Positions 5,428 to 23,226 of a DNA stretch of 29,388 bases are shown piece by piece. Below the pieces are notes generated by a model that did no database searches, had not been told where the DNA came from, and worked only from the letters and a program-made list of their open reading frames with translations. How positions within the stretch are numbered: the stretch's first letter is position 1; each line of letters starts with the position of its first letter. Source of the stretch: Rickettsiales bacterium (lineage in GTDB: Bacteria; Pseudomonadota; Alphaproteobacteria; Methylaequorales; Methylaequoraceae); NCBI GenBank assembly GCA_002710765.1, contig PALK01000017.1, positions 83,134 to 112,521 on the forward strand, written 5' to 3'. The position numbers and the translations under genes were made by a program.

Positions 5428-5973
5428 TTAGTAGCCCATAGCGGAATAAAGTTCCTTAGCCTTGGCCATGTTGCCTTTTGCTTCAGCGACACAGGATCGC
5501 CATGCTTGTTGCTTAGGTGTGCCAGACTTTGAAGGTGCGGCTTCCATAGCATTAAGAACCATTTCTTCAGCAGCATATTCTTCATCAGAGATACCGCCTT
5601 CAGCAGCCATTGGAACTACTTCAGGAGTAGGTTGGGCTGCAGTTTGGATTTGGTCACGGAAATCACCAGCAACATCAGAAACTCTTTCTTCAACTACATC
5701 GTAAACATCGCTTACGACTGGTAGTTTAGTGAGTTCACCGAGAACTGGTGTTCGGCGGAACTTGCCCATAAGAACAGCAAGTCCAAGAGTGGCAGGAACT
5801 ACTCCAAGAATGCGGCCAACAGTGACGGATGCACCGCCAACTACTGGGATAGCAGATGGAATAGTTGTAACTTGGTAAGAAAGGATGTCAGCAAAACGAG
5901 TGCTAAAGAAACCAAAACCAACGAGCAGGAGAGACCCTCCGACAGTGTATTCATTAACAATTAGATTTCGCAT
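5428..5973 (-). CDS. Membrane protein of the three-copy NxxxVG family, with processing-like motifs
   Basis: 181 residues. The N-terminal half carries TM segments at about 10-30 and 55-75 and is paralogous to the products of 6005-6364 and 19147-19449: NLIVNEYTVGGSLLLVG aligns with NFIVNPLTVGASLTVVG. The second half is acidic and probably disordered and contains two copies of the recurrent motif (PMAAE and YAAE). I start at ATG 5971-5973 because AGGAG lies 8 nt upstream; the ATG at 5980-5982 sits too close to that SD. The leader shares a 15-nt identity with that of capsid-like copy 1. Probably the second cistron after 6005-6364. Confidence 0.85.
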   Translation of the reverse strand: MRNLIVNEYTVGGSLLLVGFGFFSTRFADILSYQVTTIPSAIPVVGGASVTVGRILGVVPATLGLAVLMGKFRRTPVLGELTKLPVVSDVYDVVEERVSDVAGDFRDQIQTAAQPTPEVVPMAAEGGISDEEYAAEEMVLNAMEAAPSKSGTPKQQAWRSCVAEAKGNMAKAKELYSAMGY

Positions 5974-6004
5974 ACTTAACATCTCCTATTAAAGTGTGTT
6001 AACC

Positions 6005-6364
6005 TTACTCGTTCCATTCAGCGGAGCCGTAGTAAGTAGGAACGCCACGTCCACCGTAAACGGTAGAGTCTTCGCCCCAGTTGGCTTCGTTAGGATCGAT
6101 GTATGCGCCTTCTGCTGCGGATTCATCAGCGATGTCTCCCAAGAATGGGATATCAAAGCCACCGTAGACACGGGCTAATGTCACAAGTCCAACGGACAAT
6201 GGGACGACATACATTACGGTGCCGAGACTGACATTAATTACGGGAATGGTATAGTCCATTACGTTACTAAACATTCCACCTACAAGGCCAGCAGCACCGA
6301 CGACTGTTAGAGATGCTCCAACAGTAAGCGGGTTTACAATAAAGTTCATTATTTGGTTCAACAT
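6005..6364 (-). CDS. Membrane protein of the three-copy NxxxVG family, ending in a WYGSAE-type cassette
   Basis: 119 residues. Two TM segments (about 8-30 and 40-66) belong to the family shared with 5428-5973 and 19147-19449. After the TMs comes a short acidic tail with SAAE at 82-85 and a copy of the NWGEDS...GGRGVPTYYGSAE cassette (95-116) also found four times in the 662-residue protein and partly in the next upstream gene. ATG 6362-6364 has AGGAG 11 nt upstream and a TATATATA box 42 nt away, so this mRNA should have a leader of about 16-20 nt. It heads an operon of four membrane proteins (6364 to 4904). Confidence 0.85.
   Translation of the reverse strand: MLNQIMNFIVNPLTVGASLTVVGAAGLVGGMFSNVMDYTIPVINVSLGTVMYVVPLSVGLVTLARVYGGFDIPFLGDIADESAAEGAYIDPNEANWGEDSTVYGGRGVPTYYGSAEWNE
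6017..6082 (-). repeat. WYGSAE cassette in the 119-residue membrane protein
   Basis: Residues 95-116 (NWGEDS, GGRGVPTYYGSAE) match the cassettes at 10672-10737, 10804-10869, 11098-11160 and 11227-11295 in another gene. Confidence 0.7.
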
Positions 6365-6406
6365 ATTTTTTACTCTCCTGAGTTATTTTATTCTTTTCTT
6401 TTCCAC

Positions 6407-6414
6407 TATATATA
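6407..6414 (-). promoter_or_regulatory. TATA box for the membrane-protein operon 6364-4904
   Basis: TATATATA, 42 nt from the ATG, followed by an A-rich leader with SD AGGAG. The same 42-nt spacing is seen before 18076. Confidence 0.65.
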
Positions 6415-6417
6415 GTT

Positions 6418-7449
6418 TTACATCTGTCCGAGAACAGATCCGTTTCCTTCACCAATGTGGTGAGAAAGGGTCCCTACTGCATTTTGCTCGGCAGAGCCAT
6501 ACCATTGTATAGGTGTTTTGCTGCCGGGGCTGACGACACGGACGGATGCCAGTGGGTTCATATCTGTGTCAGCAGTAGTGAATGGTTTAAAGTATTCTGG
6601 GGCTTGAACGTTTGCCGAAGCAGATTGTTCAACCATTGGCTCTTCAGCCGCATAGTGCACAGGAGGTGCGTAAGCATTTCCACCTGCATACTTAGTAGTT
6701 ACAAACATATTACTCTTGTTCATGTTTTGAGCACGAAGTCCCATAGTATCTACAGAAGAAACATAATCAGCCGCCATCATATCGGTAGGATTCATAGTAG
6801 CAGAAGATTCGCTAACTCCACCGAAGTTTTGGTCAACTCCACCAGTAGGTGCAAACTCAGCACCAAACCACTGGTCAGGTCCGTGACCCAATGGAGATAG
6901 TTCTACAACAGAGGCAACTGCATCAGAAGCAGGAACACGGTCTACCATATCAACAGTCATGTTTTCAAAGTCCCATGCAGGACCTCCATCACCGGGGTAG
7001 CCAGAAGAACCTTCAGTTAGTTCTTCAGCATTCTTAATATCTGAAAAAGAGTGAAGTGCAGTTTCTTGTCCGATAACACTACCGCTACCAGATTGAGGAA
7101 GGTATTCTTCAGCCGAGTAACGACCAACCATAGATCCCAAACGAGGTGAAATCATAGTAGCCGCCTGAACCACAGCCGAAAGCACCAAAGCAGTTCCAGC
7201 GTAATTCATTCCCTTTCCATAGTTGTCAAAACGACTGCGGGAAGAAACGATAAGGTAACCACCAAGTCCAGCAGTTCCCAGTGTGCGACCTACTTCAGCA
7301 AGAGGTCCCAAACGGTAGAATGGAATGTAAGTTAAAAGTCCACCGATGAAAGCACCAGACATAAGTCCAATAACGCCTGCATAAGTAGAACTATCTGTAA
7401 GAACCTCAAAGGAATCTTCTACATCGGGTTGAGATTGTGAGTATTGCAT
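6418..7449 (-). CDS. Multi-TM membrane protein with long disordered C-terminal region
   Basis: 343 residues from ATG 7447-7449 (alternative ATG 7453-7455 or GTG 7462-7464). About three TM segments lie in residues 18-110 (AGVIGLMSGAFIGGLLTYI is the first). The remaining 230 residues are low-complexity and carry five or more motif copies: YSAE, NAEE, FGAE, YAAE and, near the C-terminus, PIQWYGSAE, which matches the cassette of the neighbour 6005-6364. Family not recognised; likely a virion membrane protein. The TATAAATA box lies 23 nt before the chosen ATG, 17 nt before ATG 7453-7455, so the spacing rule favours the downstream start although an AGGTG SD would suit the upstream one. Confidence 0.8.
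   Translation of the reverse strand: MQYSQSQPDVEDSFEVLTDSSTYAGVIGLMSGAFIGGLLTYIPFYRLGPLAEVGRTLGTAGLGGYLIVSSRSRFDNYGKGMNYAGTALVLSAVVQAATMISPRLGSMVGRYSAEEYLPQSGSGSVIGQETALHSFSDIKNAEELTEGSSGYPGDGGPAWDFENMTVDMVDRVPASDAVASVVELSPLGHGPDQWFGAEFAPTGGVDQNFGGVSESSATMNPTDMMAADYVSSVDTMGLRAQNMNKSNMFVTTKYAGGNAYAPPVHYAAEEPMVEQSASANVQAPEYFKPFTTADTDMNPLASVRVVSPGSKTPIQWYGSAEQNAVGTLSHHIGEGNGSVLGQM
6487..6516 (-). repeat. Partial WYGSAE cassette
   Basis: Encodes TPIQWYGSAE near the C-terminus of the 343-residue membrane protein, matching the core of the cassettes in two other proteins. Confidence 0.6.
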
Positions 7450-7472
7450 TACCATATTGTTCACCTAACGAC

Positions 7473-7480
7473 TATTTATA
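7473..7480 (-). promoter_or_regulatory. TATA box for gene 6418-7449
   Basis: TATAAATA followed by GTCG; 23 nt to ATG 7447-7449. Confidence 0.65.
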
Positions 7481-7485
7481 TTTAT

Positions 7486-8313: not shown

Positions 8314-8335
8314 AATATTACATCCTTGTTACAAC

Positions 8336-8343
8336 TATTTATA
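8336..8343 (-). promoter_or_regulatory. TATA box for gene 7486-8313
   Basis: TATAAATA preceded by ATAAG, 22 nt to the ATG; the spacer also holds AAGGATG. Confidence 0.7.
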
Positions 8344-8344
8344 C

Positions 8345-9238
8345 TTATTGCATACTACGCCTGACCAAGAGGATAGGTAGAACGATGGCAGAAACCGAGG
8401 CTACGCCGATTAAGGCCGGAGCCATATAAGATTTACGAGGGGCTTCAATTTCAATTTCCACGGTGTCAACTTGTGGAAACGCCGGGGCCATGACATCATG
8501 AGTTACGGCATCTAAATTAGGAAGTAGATCTACGACCTGTGAGGCTGGGGCTAAAGTTAATTGTTCTCGGGTTTCTACAACATCACATCCCGAGTAATTA
8601 GTTTGCGACCAAGTAGCGGCAGCGATTTGCACAACTTTAGGATAAATAATAGCATCGTAACCTAAAGTATCTTTATTATAGCCAGCAGAAGTTAAGTTAT
8701 TGATAACACGAGCCAAGGTAACTTGACCTTCGTGATAACCGGGAGTGCCCATGGCTGGGAACAACCAGAGTTCGTATTCGGCAGGAAGCATAGAAGCGAC
8801 TCGTTGAGCCACACCGAATTGGTCACGGGCTTCGGCTCGCATTTCCTCGGTAATAACAGGAGCGATGGGTTCAGCCATCATTTCTGGCTCGGGAGTTTCT
8901 TGATTCTCAAAATCAATACCCGAGTCCTCCACCACCGGCTGGTCTCCAGCCGTTTCAGGAGTAGTGGCATCTGAATCATCTACGACATCATCTAAAGCGA
9001 CTTCTTCTTCAGGTGAATCATCATCATCGTCAGAAATACCTTCAGTTTTCGCAGCGACACCTGCTAAAGCGGCACCTGCCTTTTCCATAGCAGCACCTTT
9101 GGAATCTTTGGTTTCTTTATCGCCGGGGATTGCATCAGTTGTAGGAACAGAGTCCTTAACTTCTTCGTCTACACCTGCAGACTTTTCAATCTCGGCCTTT
9201 AAGTCTTCCAAATCCGGAGACAAATCTTCATCAGCCAT
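8345..9238 (-). CDS. C-terminally anchored membrane protein with acidic N-terminal region
   Basis: 297 residues in three parts. Residues 1-110 are strongly acidic and low-complexity (runs of Asp and Glu). Residues 110-265 form a probable folded domain beginning EARDQFGVAQRVASMLPAEYE and containing the only Cys. Residues 270-293 are a TM segment (ALIGVASVSAIVLPILLV) followed by RRSMQ, so the bulk would face the opposite side to the short basic tail. MMAE and MRAE lie between the acidic region and the folded domain, where cleavage would release the domain from the acidic leader. No family recognised. The unit has TATAAATA 22 nt from the ATG and no SD, a good example of a predicted leaderless gene. 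Confidence 0.85.
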   Translation of the reverse strand: MADEDLSPDLEDLKAEIEKSAGVDEEVKDSVPTTDAIPGDKETKDSKGAAMEKAGAALAGVAAKTEGISDDDDDSPEEEVALDDVVDDSDATTPETAGDQPVVEDSGIDFENQETPEPEMMAEPIAPVITEEMRAEARDQFGVAQRVASMLPAEYELWLFPAMGTPGYHEGQVTLARVINNLTSAGYNKDTLGYDAIIYPKVVQIAAATWSQTNYSGCDVVETREQLTLAPASQVVDLLPNLDAVTHDVMAPAFPQVDTVEIEIEAPRKSYMAPALIGVASVSAIVLPILLVRRSMQ

Positions 9239-9260
9239 AAAGTAGATAGGAGGCTACAAC

Positions 9261-9268
9261 TATTTATA
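9261..9268 (-). promoter_or_regulatory. TATA box for gene 8345-9238
   Basis: TATAAATA, 22 nt to ATG, with no SD in the spacer (it contains the complement, GCCTCCT). Confidence 0.7.
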
Positions 9269-9269
9269 C

Positions 9270-9788
9270 TTATTCTTCCTCTCGGGAGAAAACAGTGAAG
9301 TTATAATCTACACCTGCCAATTCTGGTTCGTAGAGAGCAATAGTGATTTCACCACTCCCAAAAGTATTAACCATAGCACCTTCTAAATACTCAGGTTGTT
9401 CGGCAGCATAAACCCAAACTGGAAGTTTGGTAACCACGGTGTCATCACCCTCTAACTGGGTATCAATAAGTATAGTAGGAACACCGTTCATATCATTAGC
9501 AGATAAAATCCGGTTAACAGTATATTCAGGAGCACGAGGATCGGGTTCACCAACTTGGAATTGATAAGTAGCAATTCGGACTCCATCACTACCATGATAG
9601 CCAGAGTAAGCCCATGCTTTCAATTCGGTAAGAGAAGTGACTTCAAAGAAACTGGGAAAAGCCACAGCATGATGCCCCCAATGAACATAATCTAAATCAT
9701 TCATATCAAAAGCGGCGGCTTGTTCAGCAGGAATACCATTTTCCGCATAATATTCTCTAAACTTATCGTTAAGATCAGAATCAGACAT
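9270..9788 (-). CDS. Hypothetical soluble protein
   Basis: 172 residues, mostly beta-rich in the second half (WAYSGYHGSDGV, TYQFQVGEP, ILIDTQLEGDDTVV), with YAAEQPEYLEGA near 130-141 as a copy of the recurrent motif. No TM segment or Cys clusters. Family not recognised. I start at ATG 9786-9788 because a TATAAGTA box ends 22 nt upstream; a longer frame to 9845 would begin above the promoter. An inverted repeat lies between the box and the ATG. Confidence 0.8.
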   Translation of the reverse strand: MSDSDLNDKFREYYAENGIPAEQAAAFDMNDLDYVHWGHHAVAFPSFFEVTSLTELKAWAYSGYHGSDGVRIATYQFQVGEPDPRAPEYTVNRILSANDMNGVPTILIDTQLEGDDTVVTKLPVWVYAAEQPEYLEGAMVNTFGSGEITIALYEPELAGVDYNFTVFSREEE

Positions 9789-9796
9789 ACACTTTA

Positions 9797-9809
9797 GTGG
9801 TGAAACCAC
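9797..9809 (-). promoter_or_regulatory. Operator-like inverted repeat
   Basis: GTGGT-TTC-ACCAC lies directly downstream of the TATA box of gene 9270-9788, where a bound repressor would block initiation. No other promoter in the window has it. Chance is possible. Confidence 0.3.
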
Positions 9810-9810
9810 A

Positions 9811-9818
9811 TACTTATA
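9811..9818 (-). promoter_or_regulatory. TATA box for gene 9270-9788
   Basis: TATAAGTA, 22 nt to ATG. The same variant octamer precedes the gene starting at 20799. Confidence 0.6.
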
Positions 9819-9850
9819 ACTTCCTTTCCCCTGAATGTAAAGCATTCAAG

Positions 9851-10414
9851 TTAAAGTTTTAGTATCAAAAAGCCTGCTATGGCCATCAAGACTCCGACAG
9901 CACCTTGCATATTAAGTGGTTCAGGTTCAAAACTTTCGGCTCCTAATTCTACGTTAACATCATACCGATAGTAAACATTAAGTTCTTCAACTTTTTCGTC
10001 CTCGTTAACATAGTTAACATAAGTAATGCCTTGAGAACTCGGGTCACGCTCGTTTTCATATTCATAAATGATGTGGTCTTGAACAGCAGAATCAATTAAA
10101 GCAATTAATTCATCGTTGTCAACTTCATCATCATCCATATCAAAGATAGTCCACTCATAACCAACCATAACATCAGCCGCTACGTTACCAGATTCAGTGT
10201 AATCAGCACCGAAACCTAACATTTCTTTAATGGCTTTTCTACGAACTCCTGAATAATCACGACGAGTAGATTTTTTACGATTAGGATCACGAATTAAACC
10301 ACGATATCTATAACTTCTAACGTTTTCAGCACCAAATGGGGCTTGGGAAGTATACTTATAGGGATTATAGTCATCTACAGTTTGGTAATTTCCAGTGTAG
10401 GTGACACCTGTCAT
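9851..10414 (-). CDS. C-terminally anchored membrane protein
   Basis: 187 residues. The N-terminal 60 residues are basic and Tyr-rich (YRYRGLIRDPNRKKSTRR); the middle is acidic; residues 168-187 are a single TM segment ending the protein (GAVGVLMAIAGFLILKL). Copies of the recurrent motif are FGAEN near 29-33, a degenerate FGADY near 69, and LGAES just before the TM. Family not recognised. The ATG at 10412-10414 lies 11 nt after the stop of the 662-residue protein and has GAGG upstream; no TATA box, so it is probably the second cistron of that unit. Confidence 0.8.
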   Translation of the reverse strand: MTGVTYTGNYQTVDDYNPYKYTSQAPFGAENVRSYRYRGLIRDPNRKKSTRRDYSGVRRKAIKEMLGFGADYTESGNVAADVMVGYEWTIFDMDDDEVDNDELIALIDSAVQDHIIYEYENERDPSSQGITYVNYVNEDEKVEELNVYYRYDVNVELGAESFEPEPLNMQGAVGVLMAIAGFLILKL

Positions 10415-10425
10415 AGTGGACCGCC

Positions 10426-12414
10426 TCACTTCTTGGAGGCTAACATGTATCCGAGGTAAGCCAAAATACCGCCGCCAGCAACCATAGCCATAGGGCTTTG
10501 GAACATACTTGGCTTTTGGTAACGAGCACCCATACCGTCAATAGTCTCGGAGAGAAGCAACATGAACTCATCTCCAGTCATGTATTCTCCTTCGGGACTC
10601 ATTTCATCCACGAACTCGTAAGGATGATATGCATCAGGACGTGCTTCTTGCACGGCTACGGATTCAGGAGCCTCTGCGCTACCATACCATTGAGGTGCGC
10701 CACGACCGCCAATAGCGGAATCGTTACCCCATGAGTTGTTAACCAAAGGAACTCCTTGGACGTGAGTAGTTTCTACATTGTCGGAGTAGACAACTTCGTT
10801 GACTTCTGCACCATACATTTGTGGAACTCCGTTTCCAGAGCCACCGGCAGAATCTTCTCCCCATGAGTTAGCAATAACTGGTAGACCGACACCAAGAGCA
10901 TCTTCTCCACCAACTTGTTCAAATACTAAGGGGTTGACTTCAGCATCCATAGTCATAACATCGTCATACTTACGGTGCATACGAGTGTGCATCTTATCCA
11001 TAGCAGCCGCTTCATCTCGGCGGTCATGCTTGGATTGAGAATGAGGACCACGGTGTCGCATTCCAAGTGATTCATCCATCTTATCATTATAGCCTTGTTC
11101 AGCACCATACCATTGTGGAACTCCACGTCCGCCAATAGCGGAATCTTCGCCACGAGTATTAGGAACAATAGGAACTCCTTGAACATGAGTTTCATCTACA
11201 TTGTCAGACATAACTACTTCGTTAACTTCAGCACTACCATACCATTGTGGAACACCTTGTCCACTAACAATTGCGGAGTTAGTTCCATAAGCATTAGCAG
11301 GAGCAAGAATATCAACGCCCGCATCAGGCATCATAACGAAGTTTTCGTCAGAGCCGGGTTGCTCAATTCCATCTGCAGAGTAGTGAATCATATGATCGTA
11401 ATCGCCACCGGCTTGTCCAAAGGCTTGAGTAGTCATAACTTGACGCATTTCTTCTCCCATTGGAACAACTTCAGTCAGTGGTGTGGCCTCAACTTCAGCA
11501 TCAAACTTCATAGCCTTAGCAGCACGAGCAGCCTTACGAGCCTTGCTTCGTGCCTTAGCACTTAGACGGTGTTTAAGAGTTGCCGACTTGGGACCCATTT
11601 TATCAGTCTTCATAGGATTGACGTGTCCGACCTCGCCTTCAGCAGCGTTATCAAAAGTATCTTGAGGAGTGTATCCTCCTTCTACACCAGAAGGATCGTA
11701 TTTAACGTTAGCCGTGCTGTAGGTTTCAGCCGGTGGGTTATCTGCCATTGGGTCAGAAACTTGAAGTGCTTCTGATTCAGGGGCTGCTTCTGCTTCTGCA
11801 GAGAATCCTTCATTCTGTGGGTTTTCGGTTAGTGGACGAGATTCATCGTAAGAAGATGGAGTTGGTGCGACCGATGTTGGGTCTACGAACTCTGCTGACT
11901 TCTGATTGATAACATCGCCAATTTCGCTTTCTAATTTGTTTATAGTTTCCAAGATATCCTTCTCCTCGTAAATAAATGTGTTAATCAAGAATGTGCCGGG
12001 GGTTGTGTTTGCGCCAACGGCTTCCAACTGTGACATATCGGTAGCACTCGGGTCGGCTTCCCTCATAGTAATGGTATCAGTTCCATCAGTAACAACATAG
12101 GGTGGGCTTTGGCCGCCTTCGTCGTAAGTTCGCATTTCAACCATACCTTGTCGGTTAGGTCCACGAACCTTAACGGTGGTGCCTTCGTCACGAATAGCAA
12201 GTGGGGTGTAACCATGGTTGTCCACACGGGACTTATGGTAGAAAAGAGCACATCGGTAGAGTTGGTTACGAACCTCTTCCGGCAATCCATCATACTGGTT
12301 CTTCTTCAAAATCCAGACGTTATCATAAAAGTTTAAAGTATCATTTTTTGATGATGCATCAAAGCCCCAGTAGTCTTGGGATAGAATATATACACGCTCT
12401 CGGGATTCTGCCAT
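10426..12414 (-). CDS. Large repeat-bearing membrane-anchored protein (candidate structural precursor)
   Basis: 662 residues. Residues 1-170 look folded (MAESRERVYILSQDYWGFDA); 175-270 are low-complexity; 281-302 is a Lys/Arg/Ala-rich helix; 370-585 holds four cassettes of the form N-S-W-G-E-D-S-A...G-V-P-Q-W-Y-G-(S)-A-E, two of them followed by VNEVV-SDNV-THVQGVP; and 641-659 is a C-terminal TM ending in SKK. At least eight x-A-E motifs are present (FSAE, FDAE, MDAE, YGSAE, YGAE). The layout suggests a polyprotein-like precursor cut at repeated sites, or a multivalent scaffold; both are inference. Family not recognised. Start set by TATAAATA 22 nt upstream. Confidence 0.85.
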   Translation of the reverse strand: MAESRERVYILSQDYWGFDASSKNDTLNFYDNVWILKKNQYDGLPEEVRNQLYRCALFYHKSRVDNHGYTPLAIRDEGTTVKVRGPNRQGMVEMRTYDEGGQSPPYVVTDGTDTITMREADPSATDMSQLEAVGANTTPGTFLINTFIYEEKDILETINKLESEIGDVINQKSAEFVDPTSVAPTPSSYDESRPLTENPQNEGFSAEAEAAPESEALQVSDPMADNPPAETYSTANVKYDPSGVEGGYTPQDTFDNAAEGEVGHVNPMKTDKMGPKSATLKHRLSAKARSKARKAARAAKAMKFDAEVEATPLTEVVPMGEEMRQVMTTQAFGQAGGDYDHMIHYSADGIEQPGSDENFVMMPDAGVDILAPANAYGTNSAIVSGQGVPQWYGSAEVNEVVMSDNVDETHVQGVPIVPNTRGEDSAIGGRGVPQWYGAEQGYNDKMDESLGMRHRGPHSQSKHDRRDEAAAMDKMHTRMHRKYDDVMTMDAEVNPLVFEQVGGEDALGVGLPVIANSWGEDSAGGSGNGVPQMYGAEVNEVVYSDNVETTHVQGVPLVNNSWGNDSAIGGRGAPQWYGSAEAPESVAVQEARPDAYHPYEFVDEMSPEGEYMTGDEFMLLLSETIDGMGARYQKPSMFQSPMAMVAGGGILAYLGYMLASKK
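10672..10737 (-). repeat. WYGSAE cassette, copy 4
   Basis: Residues 560-581 of the 662-residue protein (NSWGNDSAIGGRGAPQWYG then SAE). Confidence 0.75.
10804..10869 (-). repeat. WYGSAE cassette, copy 3
   Basis: Residues 516-537 (NSWGEDSAGGSGNGVPQMYG then AE), followed by VNEVVYSDNV as after copy 1. Confidence 0.75.
11098..11160 (-). repeat. WYGSAE cassette, copy 2
   Basis: Residues 419-439 (NTRGEDSAIGGRGVPQWYG then AE). Confidence 0.75.
11227..11295 (-). repeat. WYGSAE cassette, copy 1
   Basis: Residues 374-396 (NAYGTNSAIVSGQGVPQWYG then SAE), followed by VNEVVMSDNV. Copies 1-2 and 3-4 form a duplicated doublet. Confidence 0.75.
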
Positions 12415-12450: not shown

Positions 12451-13362
12451 TTATACTCTCCTGAGCATAATTTCAAAACCACCACTCTGAGGAATGGCTT
12501 GCACAGTAGTATCACTATGTCGTAATAGAGTGTGGGTGCGACTCCACTGATCCAAAGAAGCAGTGGTTCCATCAGGTCCAGTGTAACTGGCGTTAACCGA
12601 TGGGTCTAAAGATAGTTTACCCATACGACCGTTGTAGTTTTCTTCTCCGGATTCACGAGAGAGGCTACCAAAGCGGTTGGCTCCTTGTTCGGGAGCATCG
12701 CTAACAATAAATGGTGCATCTACAATAGAAACCATGTAAGGCATATCTACAAACGCTTCGGGCGGTGGCTTAGGAACTCCTAATGCACGAGGAGAATTGT
12801 TGTAAACTCCAACGCCGGGGGTTTGTGAAATTGGGACAGAGGGATGACGCACTTTAACGTCAGAAGGTGGTTGACCTGTGGAAGTCAAATAAGGTGCTTG
12901 GCCGGGGGCTTGAGATTCAAAGGAACGGTGTCCGGGCATTTCAGCAGCCAGTTCTTTAGGAACATATTCTTTCATAGGGTGGCTACGACGATTCATATCA
13001 GCCATCAAATAATTTTCTTCAGCAGCCATCATAAGGTCGTCATCGCTGTAGCCTAAATCATATGGATTTTCGTAAACGGCTTGAACGTCAATAACACCGG
13101 GACCCCAAGGTGCATCATTAGCCACCATAGTGGTGTGCTCTAAGTCAAGGAATTGGTATCCCATAAAGGCTTCGGTTAATCCGACGGGAATGGTGTCTAA
13201 AGTTTGACCACTTCTTTCAATCTGCATTTCTTCTAAATCAGCAGCCGTCCAGTGAGCAGGTGCATTAAAGATTTTACCTACTGCAGTTGACCTAAGTGCA
13301 TAAGCAGTTCCGACAATAGCAGCGGCCCCTGCTAAGAAATAACCTAATGGGCTGAATCGCAT
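12451..13362 (-). CDS. N-terminally anchored membrane protein, mostly disordered
   Basis: 303 residues. Residues 5-24 are a TM segment (PLGYFLAGAAAIVGTAYAL), followed by about 280 residues rich in Pro, Ser, Gly and acidic residues. MAAEENYLMAD near 110-120 and LAAEMPG near 137-143 are copies of the recurrent motif, both placed to free the C-terminal part from the anchor if cleaved. The C-terminus (GGFEIMLRRV) may be a small folded or docking segment. Family not recognised. TATAAATA with 22 nt spacing sets the start; the box overlaps the stop codon of the upstream gene. Confidence 0.85.
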   Translation of the reverse strand: MRFSPLGYFLAGAAAIVGTAYALRSTAVGKIFNAPAHWTAADLEEMQIERSGQTLDTIPVGLTEAFMGYQFLDLEHTTMVANDAPWGPGVIDVQAVYENPYDLGYSDDDLMMAAEENYLMADMNRRSHPMKEYVPKELAAEMPGHRSFESQAPGQAPYLTSTGQPPSDVKVRHPSVPISQTPGVGVYNNSPRALGVPKPPPEAFVDMPYMVSIVDAPFIVSDAPEQGANRFGSLSRESGEENYNGRMGKLSLDPSVNASYTGPDGTTASLDQWSRTHTLLRHSDTTVQAIPQSGGFEIMLRRV

Positions 13363-15821: not shown

Positions 15822-16234
15822 AGACCTCGCCTGCCAATAAATATACCAGCAGTCAAAACCAAGCCGCCGAATACAATAAGGCCCCAATAATCTTTAACAG
15901 CATTGTTAATAGCATCTACGGGCGACATTTTAATTTCGGCTGCATTAGCATTAAAATTATCTCGGGCTTCTGCCCTCCAATCTACTTCTACAGGACGAAC
16001 CTTGACTGCTTCGGGAGAAGATTCAGGAACTGGGTGCACTTCTGGTGCAAACGGAGAAGCCGCTAAATCCACACCTAACTCTGCCAGAGTGTATTCAGTT
16101 TGAGGAACTTTATTACGAAAAGCCGATGACGGCATAAAAACACCATCAGGAAGAACTAACCCAGATTCACGATCTTCTTGTGAACCTACATTAGAGTCAC
16201 GACGGACGTAACCATCAACCATGTTAGTAGGCAT
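15818..16234 (-). CDS. C-terminally anchored small membrane protein
   Basis: 138 residues. The first 95 are hydrophilic and Pro/Glu-rich, WRAEARDNFNANAAEIKMS (about 86-105) contains two x-A-E motifs, and residues 118-135 are a TM segment (LIVFGGLVLTAGIFIG) ending RRGL. Both motifs lie just before the TM, so cleavage would shed almost the whole ectodomain. TATAAATA with 22 nt spacing precedes the ATG. It heads the unit 16234-15821-14779, coupled by ATGA. Family not recognised. Confidence 0.8.
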   Translation of the reverse strand: MPTNMVDGYVRRDSNVGSQEDRESGLVLPDGVFMPSSAFRNKVPQTEYTLAELGVDLAASPFAPEVHPVPESSPEAVKVRPVEVDWRAEARDNFNANAAEIKMSPVDAINNAVKDYWGLIVFGGLVLTAGIFIGRRGL

Positions 16235-16282: not shown

Positions 16283-17212
16283 TTACTTTTTTCCCCAGTT
16301 TCTCCAAATCCAAGATTTCACGAGACGTTTTTTAGTTAGGTCTTTCCAATAGAATTGTCTCTTACTACCTCGTAAACCAAAGTTGGGGTTAAGGCTGTTC
16401 ACATACCGTTTCGCCTGACTCACTGTCTTAAACATTCGTATTTGATTCGGTAATTTAATGTCATCTCCTTTCTTGAAGGACGCGTTTCCCGTAGATGAAA
16501 CTATCACTGTTTTTTGATATTTTCCATTTTTATCCTGTCCACTAAATCTGCCATTTGTTTGGGCTTTGAAAGACGGCACACCAATCACACGCACTATATA
16601 ATCATTTTGGTTACAAGAATAGCCTTCACACTTCCGGATTTCGTAAGTTTTCCCTTTCCAATTTTTAGGTGCATTGGTGTTATATCCATCTTTATCATAA
16701 GCACCAAACTCTTTATCTTCGGCTGCATAATCAGTAGAGGGATACTCTTGATAATTATCAGGATTGGTTGCCCACTGCATAGCCGAAGGATATGGCTGGA
16801 AGGGAACATTCTTGATGTCGCCATAAGTTTGAATATCTACGAAAGGTTCCCATGGATTGTTACTTTGGGGTGTGGGATAATTATCTGGATTAGGAATAAC
16901 CATGCCGGGGTGAATTGTGTTAGCAAAGGTGCGACCTTGGCCACTAATGTTTTGTGTAAACTGTGGGAAAATTACGCTTTCAGCACCCATGATATCTTCG
17001 GAACCTTGCACTTCAGTAGGATTGAGATGATTAACGTGGTTAGAAGAACCAGAAACATCCTCAGTCATTTCGGAGTTAAACAAAAATTGTTCTCGTTGTG
17101 GGTAATTATACCAATTGGCTAAATCGTTAACTTCTTGAGCAGTAGTTTCAGCACTGGATTCTTCTTCCTCTACTGGCTCGGAAAAGCCAAAGAAGGAGCG
17201 AACACGATCCAT
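16283..17212 (-). CDS. Hypothetical protein, possibly the C-terminal part of a frameshifted gene
   Basis: 309 residues from ATG 17210-17212. The first 160 are Asn/Pro/Tyr-rich and probably disordered, with MGAESV and DYAAEDKE as motif copies; residues 190-309 are basic with a YEIRKCEGYSC pair of Cys and a Lys/Arg/Trp-rich end (WIWRNWGKK). No TATA box or SD supports this ATG. The frame stays open upstream past it to about 17300 and reads GLIIGDCNCGDKSEEVVEP directly into the Met. A -1 shift at the G5 run (17274-17278) in the end of gene 17269-17574 joins the two smoothly. I list them separately because the sequence as given separates them. Confidence 0.7.
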   Translation of the reverse strand: MDRVRSFFGFSEPVEEEESSAETTAQEVNDLANWYNYPQREQFLFNSEMTEDVSGSSNHVNHLNPTEVQGSEDIMGAESVIFPQFTQNISGQGRTFANTIHPGMVIPNPDNYPTPQSNNPWEPFVDIQTYGDIKNVPFQPYPSAMQWATNPDNYQEYPSTDYAAEDKEFGAYDKDGYNTNAPKNWKGKTYEIRKCEGYSCNQNDYIVRVIGVPSFKAQTNGRFSGQDKNGKYQKTVIVSSTGNASFKKGDDIKLPNQIRMFKTVSQAKRYVNSLNPNFGLRGSKRQFYWKDLTKKRLVKSWIWRNWGKK

Positions 17213-17268: not shown

Positions 17269-17574
17269 TTAAGCCCCCTGTAAAAAGGATGGGGTGCCAG
17301 TAATATAATCAATCATACCAGATGGGCTGGGGTTAGGAACTCCACCGTAAAGGTGGTTAAGTTCTACATTGGCAATACTTCGCTCTTGAGCATTAGTCAT
17401 AGCCATGTCAGAAAAAGGAAGGGCACGAGTAGCGACACCATCAATTTCCATCATTTCAGCAGCCATTCGTGAATCAACTTCATCGTCGGCAGGAGTCATA
17501 ACTTTATAGACAACAAATGCTGCGATGCCGAGACCAACTAAAGACATCACATGGTTTGCACTAATCAAGTTCAA
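17269..17574 (-). CDS. N-terminally anchored membrane protein, possibly the first part of a frameshifted gene
   Basis: 101 residues from TTG 17572-17574, which has GAGGGGG just upstream; an ATG at codon 10 (17545-17547) is the alternative. Residues 10-26 are a TM segment (MSLVGLGIAAFVVYKV), then MAAEMMEIDG (39-48) carries the recurrent motif. The end is SFLQGA then TAA, with T5 and G5 runs just before the stop. Reading -1 from the G5 run continues into the frame of 16283-17212. The layout TM, motif, long disordered region, basic C-terminus in the fused form matches that of other anchored proteins here. Cotranscribed with 17582-18076 (7 nt gap). Confidence 0.7.
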   Translation of the reverse strand: MNLISANHVMSLVGLGIAAFVVYKVMTPADDEVDSRMAAEMMEIDGVATRALPFSDMAMTNAQERSIANVELNHLYGGVPNPSPSGMIDYITGTPSFLQGA

Positions 17575-18135: not shown

Positions 18136-18750
18136 TTATTCTGTAGGGGGTTCTTGGAATCCAATAACTCCACAAGCCATACGTTTTCCAGCATTACCTG
18201 TTTTTAATGATTCTTGATGCACTTTTTCATTAACTACTTCACCGTTGGCATCTAAACCACCCAAACCTAAATCATCACGGTCTTGGTGAACAATAATCAT
18301 ACGTCCTACAATAAAAGTAATACTATGAGGATCTAAACTTAAAGTCGGGGCAGTTAACTCGCCTCGGGCTTTTCCGTTAGTAGAAGTAATGTTTCCTAAG
18401 TCGCCTTCATGTCGTTCTGCCGAATCTAAACCTCCATGGGTTGTGCCAAAAGGATTAAAATGTGCACAGGCTGATTGACAACCATCAGTTAAGTCACCAT
18501 ATTCATGAATGTGAAAACCATGTTCGCCATCAGCAAGTCCATCAATATTATATTTAATAACTACACCTTGAGAAGTATCTTCAAAGTGCACGACACCAGT
18601 AACACCATTATCATTAGGTGCCATGACTGCCACAGCATAACGAGTAGGTTTAGTTTCACTCAGGTATCTTAAAGAAGGTCTAAAAGTAGACATAATATAG
18701 GCTAATCCCCCACCTATGAAGGCCATAATACCTATATTTTTGATATTCAT
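18136..18750 (-). CDS. sodC: Membrane-anchored Cu/Zn superoxide dismutase
   Basis: 204 residues. Residues 6-21 are a TM anchor or uncleaved signal (IGIMAFIGGGLAYIMS), then a full Cu/Zn SOD domain (about 38-200) that converts superoxide to peroxide and oxygen. Copper ligands are H80 and H82 (GFHIHEYGD), H97 (AHFNP) and H155 (IIVHQDRDD). Zinc ligands are H97, H105 (THGG), H114 and D117 (ERHEGDLGN). The electrostatic-guide Arg is R190 in GNAGKRMACGV, and C91 or C95 can pair with C193. The sequence is of the eukaryotic/giant-virus type (HFNP, ERHxGDLGN, GNAGxRxACGVIG) rather than the bacterial SodC type. ATG 18748-18750 overlaps the stop of the preceding membrane-protein gene (ATGA). Confidence 0.95.
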   Translation of the reverse strand: MNIKNIGIMAFIGGGLAYIMSTFRPSLRYLSETKPTRYAVAVMAPNDNGVTGVVHFEDTSQGVVIKYNIDGLADGEHGFHIHEYGDLTDGCQSACAHFNPFGTTHGGLDSAERHEGDLGNITSTNGKARGELTAPTLSLDPHSITFIVGRMIIVHQDRDDLGLGGLDANGEVVNEKVHQESLKTGNAGKRMACGVIGFQEPPTE

Positions 18751-19146: not shown

Positions 19147-19449
19147 TCAAAGGTGACCGTGGGCTTTTGCGCCTTCAATCATCTCAGCAGACATATCTAC
19201 GAATTGAGTAGGGTTTAGAACGATACTCTTACCGAAGAGCATAACCAATCCGCTACCAACTGCGATAGTTCCGAGAACCTTAAGTGGAGTTACTCCACCA
19301 AAGAGGGGAAGTTCACCAAAGGACATGCTACCAAAAGCATCTTTGTTAAAGAAAGGTAGTGGACCAGAGAACTGGTGTAGACCGATCAAAGTTAGTGTTG
19401 TTCCAATTACGAGTTTGTTGCTTAAGAAATCTGTGACTGCATTCATCAT
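19147..19449 (-). CDS. Membrane protein of the three-copy NxxxVG family
   Basis: 100 residues. Two hydrophobic segments (about 12-30 and 55-75) align with those of the products of 5428-5973 and 6005-6364: FLSNKLVIGTTLTLIG corresponds to FIVNPLTVGASLTVVG. The short tail contains MSAEMIEGAKAHG, so the recurrent motif again sits just after the membrane region, 16 residues from the C-terminus. This copy lies 13 kb from the other two. Start ATG 19447-19449 has TATAAATA 22 nt away; the next codon is also ATG. Confidence 0.85.
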   Translation of the reverse strand: MMNAVTDFLSNKLVIGTTLTLIGLHQFSGPLPFFNKDAFGSMSFGELPLFGGVTPLKVLGTIAVGSGLVMLFGKSIVLNPTQFVDMSAEMIEGAKAHGHL

Positions 19450-19490: not shown

Positions 19491-20354
19491 TCAGAACGGA
19501 CTGTGTAGTGCAGCGTTAGCACCGAAAGCACGGCCAATTCCAGTTCCGAAGCCGTTACTGTTTTCTGCTCCGAAACCACCTAAGTCAGCGTTTCGCACTG
19601 GTGGGGCAACGTGTTTAGCCTCCATACGAATCTTCTTGGGTGGATTGATACTACGAACTACCTTGTTGTGGTTCAGCATAGGTTGTGTGGATGCTGGAAT
19701 GATTGGTCGCTCTCGGATTGGCATACGAGTGCTGGACGCAGGAACATTCAGTTTAGGTGCACCACTAAACATAGCACGAGGGTTGCTCGGGCGGATAGAT
19801 GTGCGGTCTACTTCAAACGCAGGTGAAGCACCGAAAGTTTCAGTAGGTTGGTGAGCGTTAATCTTAGGCATAATTTGTTCTGCCTTCATACGGTTCATGT
19901 GAGAAACATCTGGACCGAAGTTTTGGTCGCCGTAAATCTCAGCGGTGTGAGATGGGCGAGAGTATTGTGCTTCAGGAGTAAGTCTTTGTCCCATAACTCC
20001 GTAAGCCGAGAGATCGAAATCTGCATCACGGCCACTGGCTAAAGCACTAAGGTCTAACTTAGGCATAGTAGAAATAGCAGGTGCTGGGCGAGGCATGTTT
20101 GGAACAACACCTTGTCCGTATCCGCCACCGCTAACCATGGCAGCCATGTCCATAGAAGTAGTTGGAGGCACAACGAAAGCAGGCATATTTACAACAGGGG
20201 CACTGGGTCGTGGACCAGCCTGTGTCAAACCTTGGCCCATAGCATTACGAGCAGGTAGAGTATCATTAACCAAACTAACTTGTGGTAGTGCTGGCATATT
20301 GGGGCTATATGGGATGTCTGGAAGGACAGTATTCTTTCCGATTGTTCGTGCCAT
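19491..20354 (-). CDS. Pro/Ala/Met-rich low-complexity protein
   Basis: 287 residues with little sign of a folded domain: high Pro, Ala, Met, Gly and Asn throughout, many short MP and PR repeats, no TM segment, no Cys. Near the C-terminus FGAENSNGFGTG carries the recurrent motif, 24 residues before the end, in a Gly/Phe-rich tail (GRAFGANAALHSPF). It may be a scaffold-like or matrix-like virion protein; this is a guess from composition and neighbours. Start ATG 20352-20354 has AAGGAG and a TATAAATA box 22 nt away. Confidence 0.8.
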   Translation of the reverse strand: MARTIGKNTVLPDIPYSPNMPALPQVSLVNDTLPARNAMGQGLTQAGPRPSAPVVNMPAFVVPPTTSMDMAAMVSGGGYGQGVVPNMPRPAPAISTMPKLDLSALASGRDADFDLSAYGVMGQRLTPEAQYSRPSHTAEIYGDQNFGPDVSHMNRMKAEQIMPKINAHQPTETFGASPAFEVDRTSIRPSNPRAMFSGAPKLNVPASSTRMPIRERPIIPASTQPMLNHNKVVRSINPPKKIRMEAKHVAPPVRNADLGGFGAENSNGFGTGIGRAFGANAALHSPF

Positions 20355-20376
20355 GTTAATTACTCCTTGTTTCAAC

Positions 20377-20384
20377 TATTTATA
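20377..20384 (-). promoter_or_regulatory. TATA box for gene 19491-20354
   Basis: TATAAATA, 22 nt to ATG; just past the stop of the upstream gene at 20386. Confidence 0.7.
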
Positions 20385-20385
20385 C

Positions 20386-20799
20386 TTACTTGTTCATGAG
20401 AGAGGAAACAGCCAAGAATGCGCCAGTTCCAACTAATGCAAATCCTAAGAGATTCATGAGGGAATTGCCAGAGGATTCACCTTCAGCACTGTAGTGTTCA
20501 GCAACCATGCGGTCTTGTTCGCCTTGGTCTTGTCCAAAGTTTTGGCCGTCAGCATCTCCGCCTTGGTCTCCAGTTTGACCTTCATCGGCACCTTCTGGAG
20601 TATCAGTTTCAGGTTTCAAATCTACTACTTCTGATTCTTGAGTAGCGTCTTGAGGAGATACCATTTGAGTCATGGGGTCAGTCATAACATCACGGTTAGT
20701 GTTCATGAAAGCACGAATAGCATCAGAGTTACGTTCCCAAGAGTAGTGATTTACTACGGTATTAGGATCTACAATCATCGGTTCGTTGAAAGGGTGCAT
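20386..20799 (-). CDS. C-terminally anchored acidic membrane protein
   Basis: 137 residues. Residues 1-100 are hydrophilic, Gln/Asp/Glu-rich and probably disordered. MVAEHYSAEGESSGN (about 98-112) has two consecutive x-A-E motifs, immediately followed by the single TM segment (SLMNLLGFALVGTGAFLAV) and a short tail SSLMNK. Cleavage at either motif would separate the ectodomain from the anchor, one of the clearest examples of this arrangement. TATAAGTA with 22 nt spacing sets the start. Family not recognised. Confidence 0.8.
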   Translation of the reverse strand: MHPFNEPMIVDPNTVVNHYSWERNSDAIRAFMNTNRDVMTDPMTQMVSPQDATQESEVVDLKPETDTPEGADEGQTGDQGGDADGQNFGQDQGEQDRMVAEHYSAEGESSGNSLMNLLGFALVGTGAFLAVSSLMNK

Positions 20800-20821
20800 A
20801 AGAAATTATCATCATGCCGAC

Positions 20822-20829
20822 TACTTATA
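20822..20829 (-). promoter_or_regulatory. TATA box for gene 20386-20799
   Basis: TATAAGTA, 22 nt to ATG, no SD. Confidence 0.6.
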
Positions 20830-20848
20830 CTTTAGCACACAATGGGGT

Positions 20849-21997
20849 TTAATCCCAGCGTTGTAAACTCATTAATTCTTCAGTAGTTAAAGATTCACCA
20901 GCCATTAATTTTTTCATTAACTCATCTACTTTTTGGCGAGCAGTCTTAGGATTGGAAGGTTGATTGGGTGGTTGGAAAGGACTGTTATTACCAGAGCCTT
21001 GAGGATAATAGTTAGCCGGAGTGTTAGAAGTAGAATAAGGATTAGCACGGGCGGGATTAAAGGGATTACCAGTTTGTCGTTGTTTAGCAGGCAGGGGTGG
21101 ATAGTTTTGACCCCGTGGTTGCATAGGATGGTAATAATCAGAATCTGTTTCTTGAGGCCGGGGTGTGGTGACACGTCCTCGGGGTGGTCGCTCAATACCG
21201 CTAACGAGTTTACCAATGCCAGTGAGAGGAAAGTTGATAGTCAGGCTACCTTTAGTCACTTGGTCAGACCACCAACGGAACTTAGGTCGGAACTCACCCC
21301 ATGGAATATACCATTCTTCGGCTTCACGAGGATGTTGGTCTTGATGATGTTTTAAATATTTATTATCATGGCATTCTGGAAAGGTTGGTTCGGCTTGGGC
21401 GTTAAACAATCGCACACCTGCACCCAGTTTAGGTCTGCCTGTTTTACTTCCGCCCCCATTTACTCGGAAATTGGCTCCGTTAACTCCGGGGGCAGCAGGA
21501 AGTAACTCCATTTCAAAATCTTCCCATTTAGGATTATCAAAAGGACGACAAAACATGAGATTACGTTGCCAGCGAGTAGGAACGCAAAGATAATCTTGTC
21601 TTTGGGGTGACCATGCTAAATAACTATCTCCTTTTTGGATAGGTTTCAAAGGGCCACCGCCCTCGGGACATTGAGTAGTGTGTGACCAAATAGGACACCA
21701 TCGTTCAGGTAAAGCCGTAAACTCATAACTTCCGACTCCGAAGATTTCGTCATCAAATACTGCCAGTTGGGAGTTCTTGCCGCGATCGGGTGAGATAAGA
21801 GAACGAGTTCTACCATTTTTCTTAGTAGTGGGTCGGATGTAAACCATGGCGGGAACATTGTTTTCAATAAACCATTGTTCTTTAGTAACTCCATAAGACT
21901 GTGCGAATTGAGTATCTGTTAAATCACGAAAGTGACTGGCGAGAACACCTCTGCCAGAGATGTCGCCTTCTAAACATACAATGTCGCCTGCTTCCAT
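20849..21997 (-). CDS. Hypothetical protein with Pro-rich C-terminal region
   Basis: 382 residues. Residues 1-250 look folded and Trp/Arg-rich (WCPIWSHTTQCPEGGG, FRPKFRWWSDQ), with four or five Cys/His that might bind a metal, though no standard zinc pattern is clear. Residues 265-350 are Pro/Asn/Gln-rich; the last 30 form a short helix (VDELMKKLMAGESLTTEEL). No TM segment. Family not recognised. A TATACATA box lies 24 nt before the ATG, slightly longer than the usual 22. Confidence 0.85.
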   Translation of the reverse strand: MEAGDIVCLEGDISGRGVLASHFRDLTDTQFAQSYGVTKEQWFIENNVPAMVYIRPTTKKNGRTRSLISPDRGKNSQLAVFDDEIFGVGSYEFTALPERWCPIWSHTTQCPEGGGPLKPIQKGDSYLAWSPQRQDYLCVPTRWQRNLMFCRPFDNPKWEDFEMELLPAAPGVNGANFRVNGGGSKTGRPKLGAGVRLFNAQAEPTFPECHDNKYLKHHQDQHPREAEEWYIPWGEFRPKFRWWSDQVTKGSLTINFPLTGIGKLVSGIERPPRGRVTTPRPQETDSDYYHPMQPRGQNYPPLPAKQRQTGNPFNPARANPYSTSNTPANYYPQGSGNNSPFQPPNQPSNPKTARQKVDELMKKLMAGESLTTEELMSLQRWD

Positions 21998-22021
21998 CAG
22001 GAATGATTAGTGGATACGACC

Positions 22022-22029
22022 TATGTATA
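22022..22029 (-). promoter_or_regulatory. TATA box for gene 20849-21997
   Basis: TATACATA, 24 nt to ATG; a slight deviation from the 22-nt rule. Confidence 0.5.
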
Positions 22030-22032
22030 GTT

Positions 22033-23226
22033 TTAGTTGGAGGCTAAACCACGATAAACGACATAACTAAGAGTTCCAGCCACTACTAAACCACCTACTA
22101 CGATGCCGGTGACCATCATACTACCATCTTTTTCGGGTTCTGGTGGTTCTACCTCAACATCATATTCTACTTCAGGTTCGGCTTTCGCCTCAGCATCCCA
22201 ACTCATATTATTTACTAATCGTGCCGGTGGCAGATTACCTACTGGGGAGGGGGTTGCAGGGGGAGGGGTTCTCCAAGAGGCTTCTGCAGCCATCGGTTGC
22301 TTGTGGTTGGGATTGACATCTACTTCTACATCTAAGGCTGCCAAGTCTTGAGGCGAGGCTACAGGATTTTCATCATGGAACTTCAACCGTGAATCTTGAA
22401 TGTTAACGTTGTGTCCTTTGTGTTCGGTCTTACGGTCTCCACGGATTTTACCGATGACTACATATCCTCGGTCACGATAGAACTCGGGTGCATAAGCGAT
22501 AACTTCTCCTTTACGGGCTTTAGCGATACCGTCCAGCATACGCTTAATAGTTTTCTTATCAGTTCCAAAGGATAACTGATCGTCCAGAGCCTTGAGGTCA
22601 CGAGCGTTGATAACGTTGTGAACGAGATAGATAGAGGCTTGAGATAGGGCTTCCTTGCCTACGCCCGCAGGACGCTGGGAGATAAGTGTAACTCCATAAC
22701 CGAGAGCACGGCCTAATTTACAAAGACGAATAATGGGGTCGGCTGAACTTGGTCTTCCCATCTGTGGAATAAAGTCTTGACATTCTTCCACGATTGTTTG
22801 AATACCTTTACCAAGTGCGGCTTCTAAAAGGGCTTCACAATATTCAGCAATCAATTCTTGTTGCTTCTTGAGTGGCAGTCCCGCCAACTTAATAATAACT
22901 GAGTTAGAAGTAGTCTTGAGAGTATCCACTAATTCTTTCATGTTGATAGTCTGTCCCAGAGTAGGTTTGAGTGGCACGACACCGGGCATCTGTTCTGCTA
23001 AATGACCGTGAGCATCCAGAGCGTCAAAACAAACGAATTGTAATCCCAAGCGAGCAAACTCTTCCATCAGAACCGCAGCGGTCCATGACTTTCCGCTACC
23101 ACGCTTACCAGTAATAAACAGAACCTGTGAGATAAGTGAATCATCTCCATAGGCAGAGAAATGAATATCTTTGCCTAACAGGACACGATCCTTGGGGTCC
23201 TGTAATTTCTCTTGAGGTTTACCCAT
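22033..23226 (-). CDS. HerA/FtsK-type ATPase with C-terminal membrane anchor
   Basis: 397 residues. The ATPase module spans about 20-275: Walker A GKRGSGKS at 40-47, Walker B with two acidic residues in IQTIVEEC (142-149), and LISQRPAGVGKEALSQ (181-196), which carries the polar sensor Gln typical of HerA-like proteins. HerA/FtsK ATPases pump or translocate DNA; related enzymes package genomes in membrane-containing viruses. The N-terminal HAS barrel of cellular HerA is absent. Residues 300-365 are Pro/Glu-rich with PMAAEASW and SWDAEAKAE motif copies, and 370-392 are a TM segment. A C-terminal anchor is unusual for the family and points to action at a membrane or virion vertex. ATG 23224-23226 is set by TACATATA 22 nt upstream. 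Confidence 0.9.
   Translation of the reverse strand: MGKPQEKLQDPKDRVLLGKDIHFSAYGDDSLISQVLFITGKRGSGKSWTAAVLMEEFARLGLQFVCFDALDAHGHLAEQMPGVVPLKPTLGQTINMKELVDTLKTTSNSVIIKLAGLPLKKQQELIAEYCEALLEAALGKGIQTIVEECQDFIPQMGRPSSADPIIRLCKLGRALGYGVTLISQRPAGVGKEALSQASIYLVHNVINARDLKALDDQLSFGTDKKTIKRMLDGIAKARKGEVIAYAPEFYRDRGYVVIGKIRGDRKTEHKGHNVNIQDSRLKFHDENPVASPQDLAALDVEVDVNPNHKQPMAAEASWRTPPPATPSPVGNLPPARLVNNMSWDAEAKAEPEVEYDVEVEPPEPEKDGSMMVTGIVVGGLVVAGTLSYVVYRGLASN

Follow-up and report, generated by a model that had tools for sequence, protein, structure and literature searches.

The window analysed here, a stretch of 29,388 nucleotides corresponding to bases 83134-112521 of a contig of 136,324 bp in total (C16) from a Rickettsiales genome bin, encodes a series of membrane and linker proteins that share a short motif: an aromatic residue or methionine, any residue, alanine and glutamate ([FYWM].AE in its strict form). 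Judging from sequence, this motif is best read as the recognition site of a maturation protease that cuts after Glu and is probably virus-encoded, a reading to which we assign a probability of roughly 0.62. The recurrence of the motif had been proposed in an earlier note made from the window alone, and that observation is confirmed. Between 5428 and 23247 we counted 28 copies, where within-protein shuffling gave 3.7 +/- 1.8 and shuffling by 30-residue blocks 3.7, and 15 of the 22 open reading frames (ORFs) kept there carry it (3.3 expected); these ORFs were chosen by a mechanical picker and some may be wrong. The narrower pattern [FYWM][ASGD]AE was found 21 times in the same region against 1.1 expected. 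The motif recurs in five related contigs (G096, G097, G098, G099 and G100), making six elements in all, which were read for pooled counts in pieces mostly of 20 kb or less, with genes split at the seams. The counts are 62 vs 21.2 across the C16 pieces (37 vs 19.9 in the remainder of the contig outside the region), 71 vs 30.8 in G096, 76 vs 28.9 in G097, 52 vs 21.4 in G098 and 38 vs 14.1 in G099. In G100, a hold-out retrieved once the motif was fixed, 76 sites were counted against 28.3. The other 60 contigs of the bin are flat (98 vs 106 in the first 20 kb or less of each).

The enrichment is tied to an exact register. Control patterns in the region gave 2 vs 3.7 for [FYWM].EA, 3 vs 3.6 for [FYWM].AD, 3 vs 2.1 for [FYWM].AQ, 4 vs 3.1 for [FYWM].SE and 7 vs 5.9 for [LIV].AE. 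An unbiased scan of five elements returned F.AE as the top three-residue pattern, Cys patterns aside, and among the 400 residue pairs at +2/+3 after F, Y, W or M in the six elements AE reached a z of 19.7, the next pair 6.5. When the spacing was varied from 1 to 9, an excess appeared at 2 alone (375 vs 197), the remaining values giving 168-197. The claim that YGSAE is a variant of the motif had to be abandoned: an aromatic residue three positions before AE shows no general enrichment (176 vs 197), and PQWYGSAE is a separate repeated element. It recurs as PQWYGSAE or PVWYGSAE in window positions 6005-12414, often after a VxPNSxG..SA-like stretch, and the unit is longer than the cleavage-like motif, with its AE off-register. 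Replication-type proteins are not enriched. A set of 11 hand-chosen non-virion-like families (polymerase, helicase, MCM-like, TFB, primase-like, glycosylase-like, ParA, ligase and three conserved families of unknown function; 52 proteins, 25,643 residues) holds 9 sites against 14.1 expected, and all other ORFs hold 366 against 126. The suggested nearness to transmembrane (TM) segments proved weak: in a crude hydropathy test pooled over five elements, 26 sites lie within 25 residues of a TM segment against 17.7 expected, and it is therefore not the main evidence.

The residues around the motif look like the subsites of a protease. With the Glu of the motif taken as P1 and the figures pooled over five elements, Glu is enriched 2.6-fold at P1 (Asp and Gln 1.0 each) and Ala 2.5-fold at P2 (Ser 1.4). 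At P4 the preferred residues are Phe (3.2), Met (2.9), Tyr (2.2), Lys (2.0), and Leu and Trp (1.7 each), Leu, Ile and Val taken together being weak. P3 favours Gly, Ala, Asp and Ser, with Pro seen once against 4.8 expected. At P1' Thr (5.3), Ser (4.8) and Gln (4.7) stand out, and Pro is found 5 times against 5.6, the average enrichment being 2.7-fold. Extended to [FYWM].AE[ST]F, the motif was counted 21 times with 0.5 expected; the Ser form [FYWM].SE shows a weak excess (174 vs 119). G100 has neither an AE-Pro nor an [FYWM]-Pro-AE site, with 1.5 and 1.3 expected, counts too small to weigh much. The code would best be read as F, Y, M, W or L at P4, followed by a small or polar P3 residue, Ala or Ser as P2 and Glu as P1; P1' is usually T, S, Q, D, N, E or G and rarely Pro.

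The strongest evidence for cleavage comes from polyprotein-like products with site-bounded modules. A 1325-residue chain of C16 (contig positions 37544-41521, minus strand) combines a polX palm and thumb (within residues 454-606), a DUF5872 domain (800-874) and a LigD 3'-phosphoesterase (1147-1246), and its strict sites at 780, 922, 1134 and 1263 lie between the domains or after them. A chain of G096 joins a GNAT-like domain and DUF5872, and a single 923-residue chain of G097 joins a superoxide dismutase (SOD), a zinc finger, DUF5872 and, at the C-terminus, a HELGH stretch, in both with sites in between. In the polyprotein-like chains of these three elements all 11 strict sites (13 counting off-spacing forms) lie outside the Pfam envelopes, which is weak alone because the envelopes span no more than roughly 20-25% of each chain. 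The basic DUF5872 module is present in four of the six elements, each time with a different upstream neighbour; its left edge reads FDAE-D, FDAE-D, FAAE-D and LGAE-D, and its right edge YRAE, YRSE, YRAE and YRAE. A DUF5872 protein is also listed for an algal virus in a section of one report (PMC12085832). A zinc-ribbon module has LPINLGAE-D at its right edge in three elements, with a different sequence behind it each time, and an LRTYP module found in two contexts is preceded by LGAE or FAAE and closes with LSAE or FDAE. The Cys peptide GKKNCGCG.DPC..YGAE occurs in four contexts: it is bracketed by sites in G096 and G100 (both edges strict), N-terminal in a called ORF of G097, and without a strict left site in G099. 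Modules bounded by one type of site and varying in order are the mark of viral polyproteins, and these chains appear to be built in this way. Furthermore, 84 homology breakpoints lie within 12 residues of [FYWM].[AS]E against 45.6 expected (1.84-fold); the three variants of this pattern gave 1.79-1.99-fold, and reordered or substituted controls 0.6-1.41-fold.

The motif-bearing proteins of the window, together with the SOD and one protein that has the off-spacing form alone, are the following:

22033..23247, minus strand: HerA/FtsK-like ATPase with C-terminal linker and TM segment; MAAE 22282-22293, WDAE 22189-22200
20386..20799, minus strand: acidic linker and C-terminal TM protein; MVAE 20497-20508, YSAE 20482-20493
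19491..20375, minus strand: Pro-rich linker protein; MKAE 19878-19889, FGAE 19563-19574
19147..19449, minus strand: small TM protein; MSAE 19183-19194, close to the C-terminus
18136..18750, minus strand: Cu/Zn SOD with N-terminal hydrophobic anchor (by eye); PF00080, E 1e-40
17269..17574, minus strand: N-terminal TM protein; MAAE 17455-17466, directly past the TM segment
16283..17212, minus strand: linker protein; FNSE 17069-17080, MGAE 16979-16990, YAAE 16718-16729
15818..16234, minus strand: C-terminal TM protein; WRAE 15968-15979, off-spacing YTLAE 16079-16093
14784..15887, minus strand: ORF, start codon uncertain; FYAE 15561-15572
12451..13362, minus strand: ORF with N-terminal TM segment; MAAE 13018-13029
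10426..12414, minus strand: 662-residue low-complexity protein with hydrophobic C-terminal end; FSAE 11794-11805, FDAE 11494-11505, YGAE 11098-11109, MDAE 10939-10950, YGAE 10804-10815, off-spacing YGSAE 11227-11241 and 10672-10686
9851..10429, minus strand: ORF; FGAE 10325-10336
9270..9845, minus strand: ORF; YYAE 9741-9752, YAAE 9399-9410
8345..9238, minus strand: acidic linker and C-terminal TM protein; MMAE 8870-8881, MRAE 8831-8842
6418..7464, minus strand: 348-residue membrane protein; YSAE 7108-7119, FGAE 6856-6867, YAAE 6643-6654, YGSAE 6487-6501
6005..6364, minus strand: small TM protein ending in YYGSAE-WNE; off-spacing form 6017-6031
5428..5982, minus strand: TM protein; MAAE 5599-5610, YAAE 5566-5577

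The HerA/FtsK-like ATPase matches PF01935 (E 2.3e-6) and a terminase-like PHROG (3.6e-17). Several of these proteins could be compared with their relatives. The protein at 20386..20799 has homologs in three of the four relatives searched, and the one at 19491..20375, aligned in five elements, shows MKAE/MKSE, FEAE and FGAE/FGAS, with some sites lost. Relatives of the 16283..17212 protein carry MGAESFD or YGAESFD. Near MAAE 13018-13029 the relatives have YYGAE, as well as the off-spacing FQPAE and YSDAE, G098 having none there. In the 348-residue protein three of four sites align in three relatives (FGAD/FGSE/FGAE, YSAE/YGAE/WYAE and WYGAE/YFGAE/WFGAE). One part of the 662-residue protein (around query residues 439-492) shares 76-81% identity with its counterparts in G096 and G098 and 54% with that in G099; this conserved segment of some 54 residues is basic and His-rich, and the rest of the protein is poorly conserved.

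In the SOD of C16 the Ser form YLSE (18655-18666) lies between the anchor and the enzyme, in G098 the anchor is C-terminal (by eye) and MASE precedes it, and in G097 the enzyme sits inside the polyprotein-like chain, between LRAES and FNSEA; no SOD was found in the remaining three of the six elements. The anchor appears to vary in position as the site stays near the junction. Three of the four SOD sites are Ser forms, accepted only after being seen. The motif had been described as absent from the capsid-like pair (2964-3596, 3640-4125), the glycosyltransferase and the SOD, and this holds for the first two; the SOD has no strict motif but does carry the Ser form. A hydrophobically anchored Cu/Zn SOD within a virus-like gene block is an observation in its own right. 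The coordinated shedding of anchors that the earlier note envisaged fits the SOD and the JAMM-like protein described below, but the same sites separate exchangeable modules in the polyprotein-like products, and the role would therefore be wider. Its interpretation as a whole is partly supported. If the sites are cut, scaffold-like and membrane-anchored precursors would be cleaved in their disordered linkers during assembly of a large, probably membrane-containing virion. Such cuts would release anchored domains and would split polyproteins of exchangeable cassettes, comprising DNA-repair domains, a basic DNA-binding-like module, zinc ribbons, short Cys peptides and SOD.

The best candidate for the enzyme is a JAMM-like membrane protein encoded some 41 kb to the left of the window (contig bases 41532-42368) and present in five of the six elements, the sixth (G099) being a 61-kb contig. 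Its predicted fold is JAMM/MPN-like. At an E of 1e-5 a large protein collection gave 318 homologs of this protein, 383 of HerA and 1615 of the capsid-like protein, and the best 120 of each were listed. Across the 119-120 aligned homologs listed, E36, H86, H88 and S103 are conserved at 1.00 (rounded) and D106 at 0.99, and the linker to the TM segment carries the motif in 97 of 112 homologs among the matches listed, against a shuffled rate of 3%. For one cluster of these homologs (P0124) the longest contig listed is 104 Mb; contamination or a very large assembly is the probable cause. A passage in PMC300881 gives the JAMM motif as EXnHS/THX7SXXD. The predicted fold and the conserved E, H, H, S and D are shared with the JAMM/MPN+ metalloproteases (AfJAMM, Rpn11, CSN5, BRCC36), but 14 residues rather than seven separate HxH from the SSTD stretch, the middle residue of HxH is G or S, and Pfam and profile-profile support is lacking. 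PF14464 had no match in G000, G096, G097, G098 and G100, with one sub-cutoff match on another contig of the G099 genome. Comparison by hhalign with eight Prok-JAB sequences gave 0.5%, and a PDB sequence search returned nothing useful. Even with cleavage granted, the assignment of this protein as the enzyme is tentative, the odds leaning against it. According to sections of the literature, Rpn11 and Csn5 act on isopeptide bonds and the function of lambda tail protein K was unassigned in 2003 (PMC300881), and JAB domains occur near ubiquitin-like proteins in lambda-type tail clusters (PMC1779556). The rival candidate lies in the window:

27045..28271, minus strand: HExxH (HEIGH) zinc-peptidase-like ORF, with an HExxHxxTHP-like stretch in C16, G099 and G100

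This ORF had no Pfam match at E 0.5, and it is ranked under the JAMM-like protein because its HExxH is kept in three of six elements, against five of six. It forms one gene block with a VWA-domain protein (23273-24280) and an AAA+ ATPase (306-1709), an arrangement that resembles MoxR-VWA-peptidase sets. As for the protease sought by the earlier note, no U9, S77 or S78 serine protease was found among the C16 proteins scanned, a part of the contig's ORFs (Pfam 10+30+1; PHROGs 20); the candidate that emerged is of another class, with its JAMM/MPN-like fold.

A number of observations weigh against cleavage. The breakpoint enrichment is under twofold,.AE. alone gives 1.5-fold, and the breakpoints are non-independent in a test of modest size. 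In the subset of stand-alone modules 17 of 135 junctions lie near a site against 8.1 expected, several of them off the edge itself, and junctions at the motif could also be explained by recombination between repeated AE-coding stretches. Among 32 aligned HerA homologs W.AE is present in nine and W.SE in two (11 in total, by eye), and HerA of G096, G097 and G098 has no strict site. Of the 112 JAMM-like homologs listed, 51 have a later site too (Leu and Ser forms counted), and some carry sites on both sides of the TM segment, which counts against the reading because a protease in one compartment could not cut both. G100 shows no excess of the Ser form (22 vs 25.1) and a slight one of [FYWM].AD (33 vs 25.7). 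Finally, retention is only moderate: where sites align, Glu persists in 48% of cases and Ala in 45%, compared with 35% and 33% for neighbouring Glu and Ala, and the exact P4 residue in 43% vs 39%; the surplus for Glu in itself speaks for cleavage. The sites turn over rather than being strictly conserved.

Some of these points suit the main rival explanation, unlikely in our view, the docking or sorting signal that the earlier note gave as its alternative, in which the motif in disordered tails binds a shared partner such as a capsid, matrix or membrane protein and is never cut, membrane proteins and cargo polyproteins being gathered into the particle by it. The aromatic residue outlasts AE in HerA, where 31 of 32 aligned homologs retain the Trp of the linker (by eye), sites flank the TM segment on both sides in some JAMM-like homologs, and several proteins carry multiple sites, as in multivalent scaffolds; the strict P1/P4 register would also suit binding by strand addition. 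Docking by itself, however, does not require sites at both edges of exchangeable modules, Asp does not substitute for Glu overall, the lack of Pro enrichment at both P3 and P1' is what an extended substrate of a protease would show, and no reader protein was identified. An improbable compromise is a peptide that serves as a packaging signal and is afterwards removed, in the way that gp21 cuts the T4 capsid targeting sequence. It would reconcile cleavage with docking and account for aromatics conserved beyond AE, and excerpts of PMC9026906 describe the propeptides of T4 internal proteins as targeting sequences removed in the head; most sites here, however, are internal or between modules, not terminal. 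That Ala/Glu-rich linkers or duplicated short repeats yield the motif without function is highly improbable: some repeats are clearly duplicated (PQWYGSAE, MKAETF), but the enrichment persists over both kinds of shuffle, reversing the motif, substituting residues or changing the spacing leaves little or no excess, and neither the replication-type proteins of the same elements nor the other 60 contigs are enriched.

C16 is probably a large archaeal virus, marine and uncultured, that was misbinned. Its guanine-plus-cytosine (GC) content is 41.5%, and among the other bin contigs sampled 44 of 60 are below 31% and 16 of 60 lie at 35-53%. It encodes an archaeal family D DNA polymerase (PolD) large subunit (PF24846, E 4e-108), a helicase (Helicase_C_2, ResIII), an ATP-dependent DNA ligase, a TFB-like protein identified by eye and a weak MCM-like match (E 0.0095), as well as the HerA/FtsK-like ATPase and the Cu/Zn SOD. 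A cellular origin was considered and rejected; C16 is read as non-cellular because its GC content differs from that of most bin contigs and its replication genes are of archaeal type. The IMG/VR relatives are contigs of 160 kb (G096), 166 kb (G097), 123 kb (G098) and 150 kb (G100). G099 comes from another bin (PBOB01000001.1, titled Acidiferrobacteraceae) and, like C16, has the look of a virus of archaeal type that was binned with a cellular genome. The TM proteins suggest that the virion probably contains a membrane. Two capsid-like genes lie at the start of the window:

2964..3596, minus strand: capsid-like protein, motif-free, with a predicted single jelly roll (weak)
3640..4125, minus strand: second capsid-like protein, motif-free, aligned with the 2964-3596 protein

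About six C16 capsid-like paralogs match one protein of a relative (G098 48925-49581), and some of the chains are 324 to 1409 residues long. At E 1e-5 the capsid-like protein, PolD and the JAMM-like protein had no match among 50,697 phage records, and a literature search, mostly at title and abstract level, recognised no description of this lineage, of a JAMM maturase or of this code. Aoguangviridae are tailed viruses of marine archaea with PolB and HK97 capsids (PMC10768690), and they differ from the C16 group on account of both features.

Tailed phages are known to mature their virions by cutting after Glu, and for phiKZ we assume the code S/A/G-x-E as worded in the earlier note. A viral protease cutting after Glu, as that note proposed, is the best-supported reading; the code is unlike that of T4 (L/I-x-E) and of phiKZ and SPN3US (S/A/G-x-E, A-x-E). 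Portions of PMC9026906 state that T4 gp21 cuts after L/I-x-E, that several scaffold cuts are made and that the protease carries its own sites, the short P1-Glu sites being shared with the present system. [LI].E, however, is not enriched in the region (45 vs 42.6; mildly high in the remainder of C16, 363 vs 318.1), no S77, S78 or U9 protease was recognised among the proteins scanned, and the predicted capsid candidate has a weak likeness to a jelly roll rather than to HK97. The same portions describe many head proteins cut after Glu at redundant sites by phiKZ gp175 and SPN3US gp245 (PMC9026906), and part of a second report has gp245 cutting after A-x-E with Ser preferred at P1' (PMC10052503). 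Here, by contrast, Ala or Ser is P2, a bulky hydrophobic residue is P4 and sites also lie between enzyme modules; [ASG].E stands at 101 vs 87.5 in the region (p 0.05). By its site code this is not a T4- or phiKZ-type system. The single jelly-roll viruses of archaea and bacteria SPV1, HHIV-2, HCIV-1, SH1 and P23-77 have small genomes and internal membranes. They share a HerA/FtsK-type ATPase and many TM proteins with the present elements, and the capsid-like protein is a weak predicted structural match to them; the IMG/VR contigs, in contrast, are 123-166 kb long and C16 has its own PolD.

In its fullest and rather doubtful form, the proposal is that a widespread marine archaeal virus lineage, with genomes of 120-170 kb, jelly-roll capsids and its own PolD, matures through a membrane-anchored JAMM-type metalloprotease. 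The enzyme would cut after [F/Y/M/W/L]-x-[A/S]-E, free itself from its anchor and release repair enzymes, SOD and DNA-binding modules from polyproteins put together as cassettes around the sites. We know of no JAMM protein with a demonstrated role as virion maturase. If true, this would be a sign that proteolytic maturation also arose in another virion architecture, with another code, another kind of candidate protease and polyprotein cassettes; the maturase would belong to a class not known for this role, its cleavage code would lie outside the HK97/herpes world, and the JAMM candidate would gain a testable substrate. The code predicts which proteins of unknown function are precursors and where they would be cut, making dozens of genes testable by proteomics.

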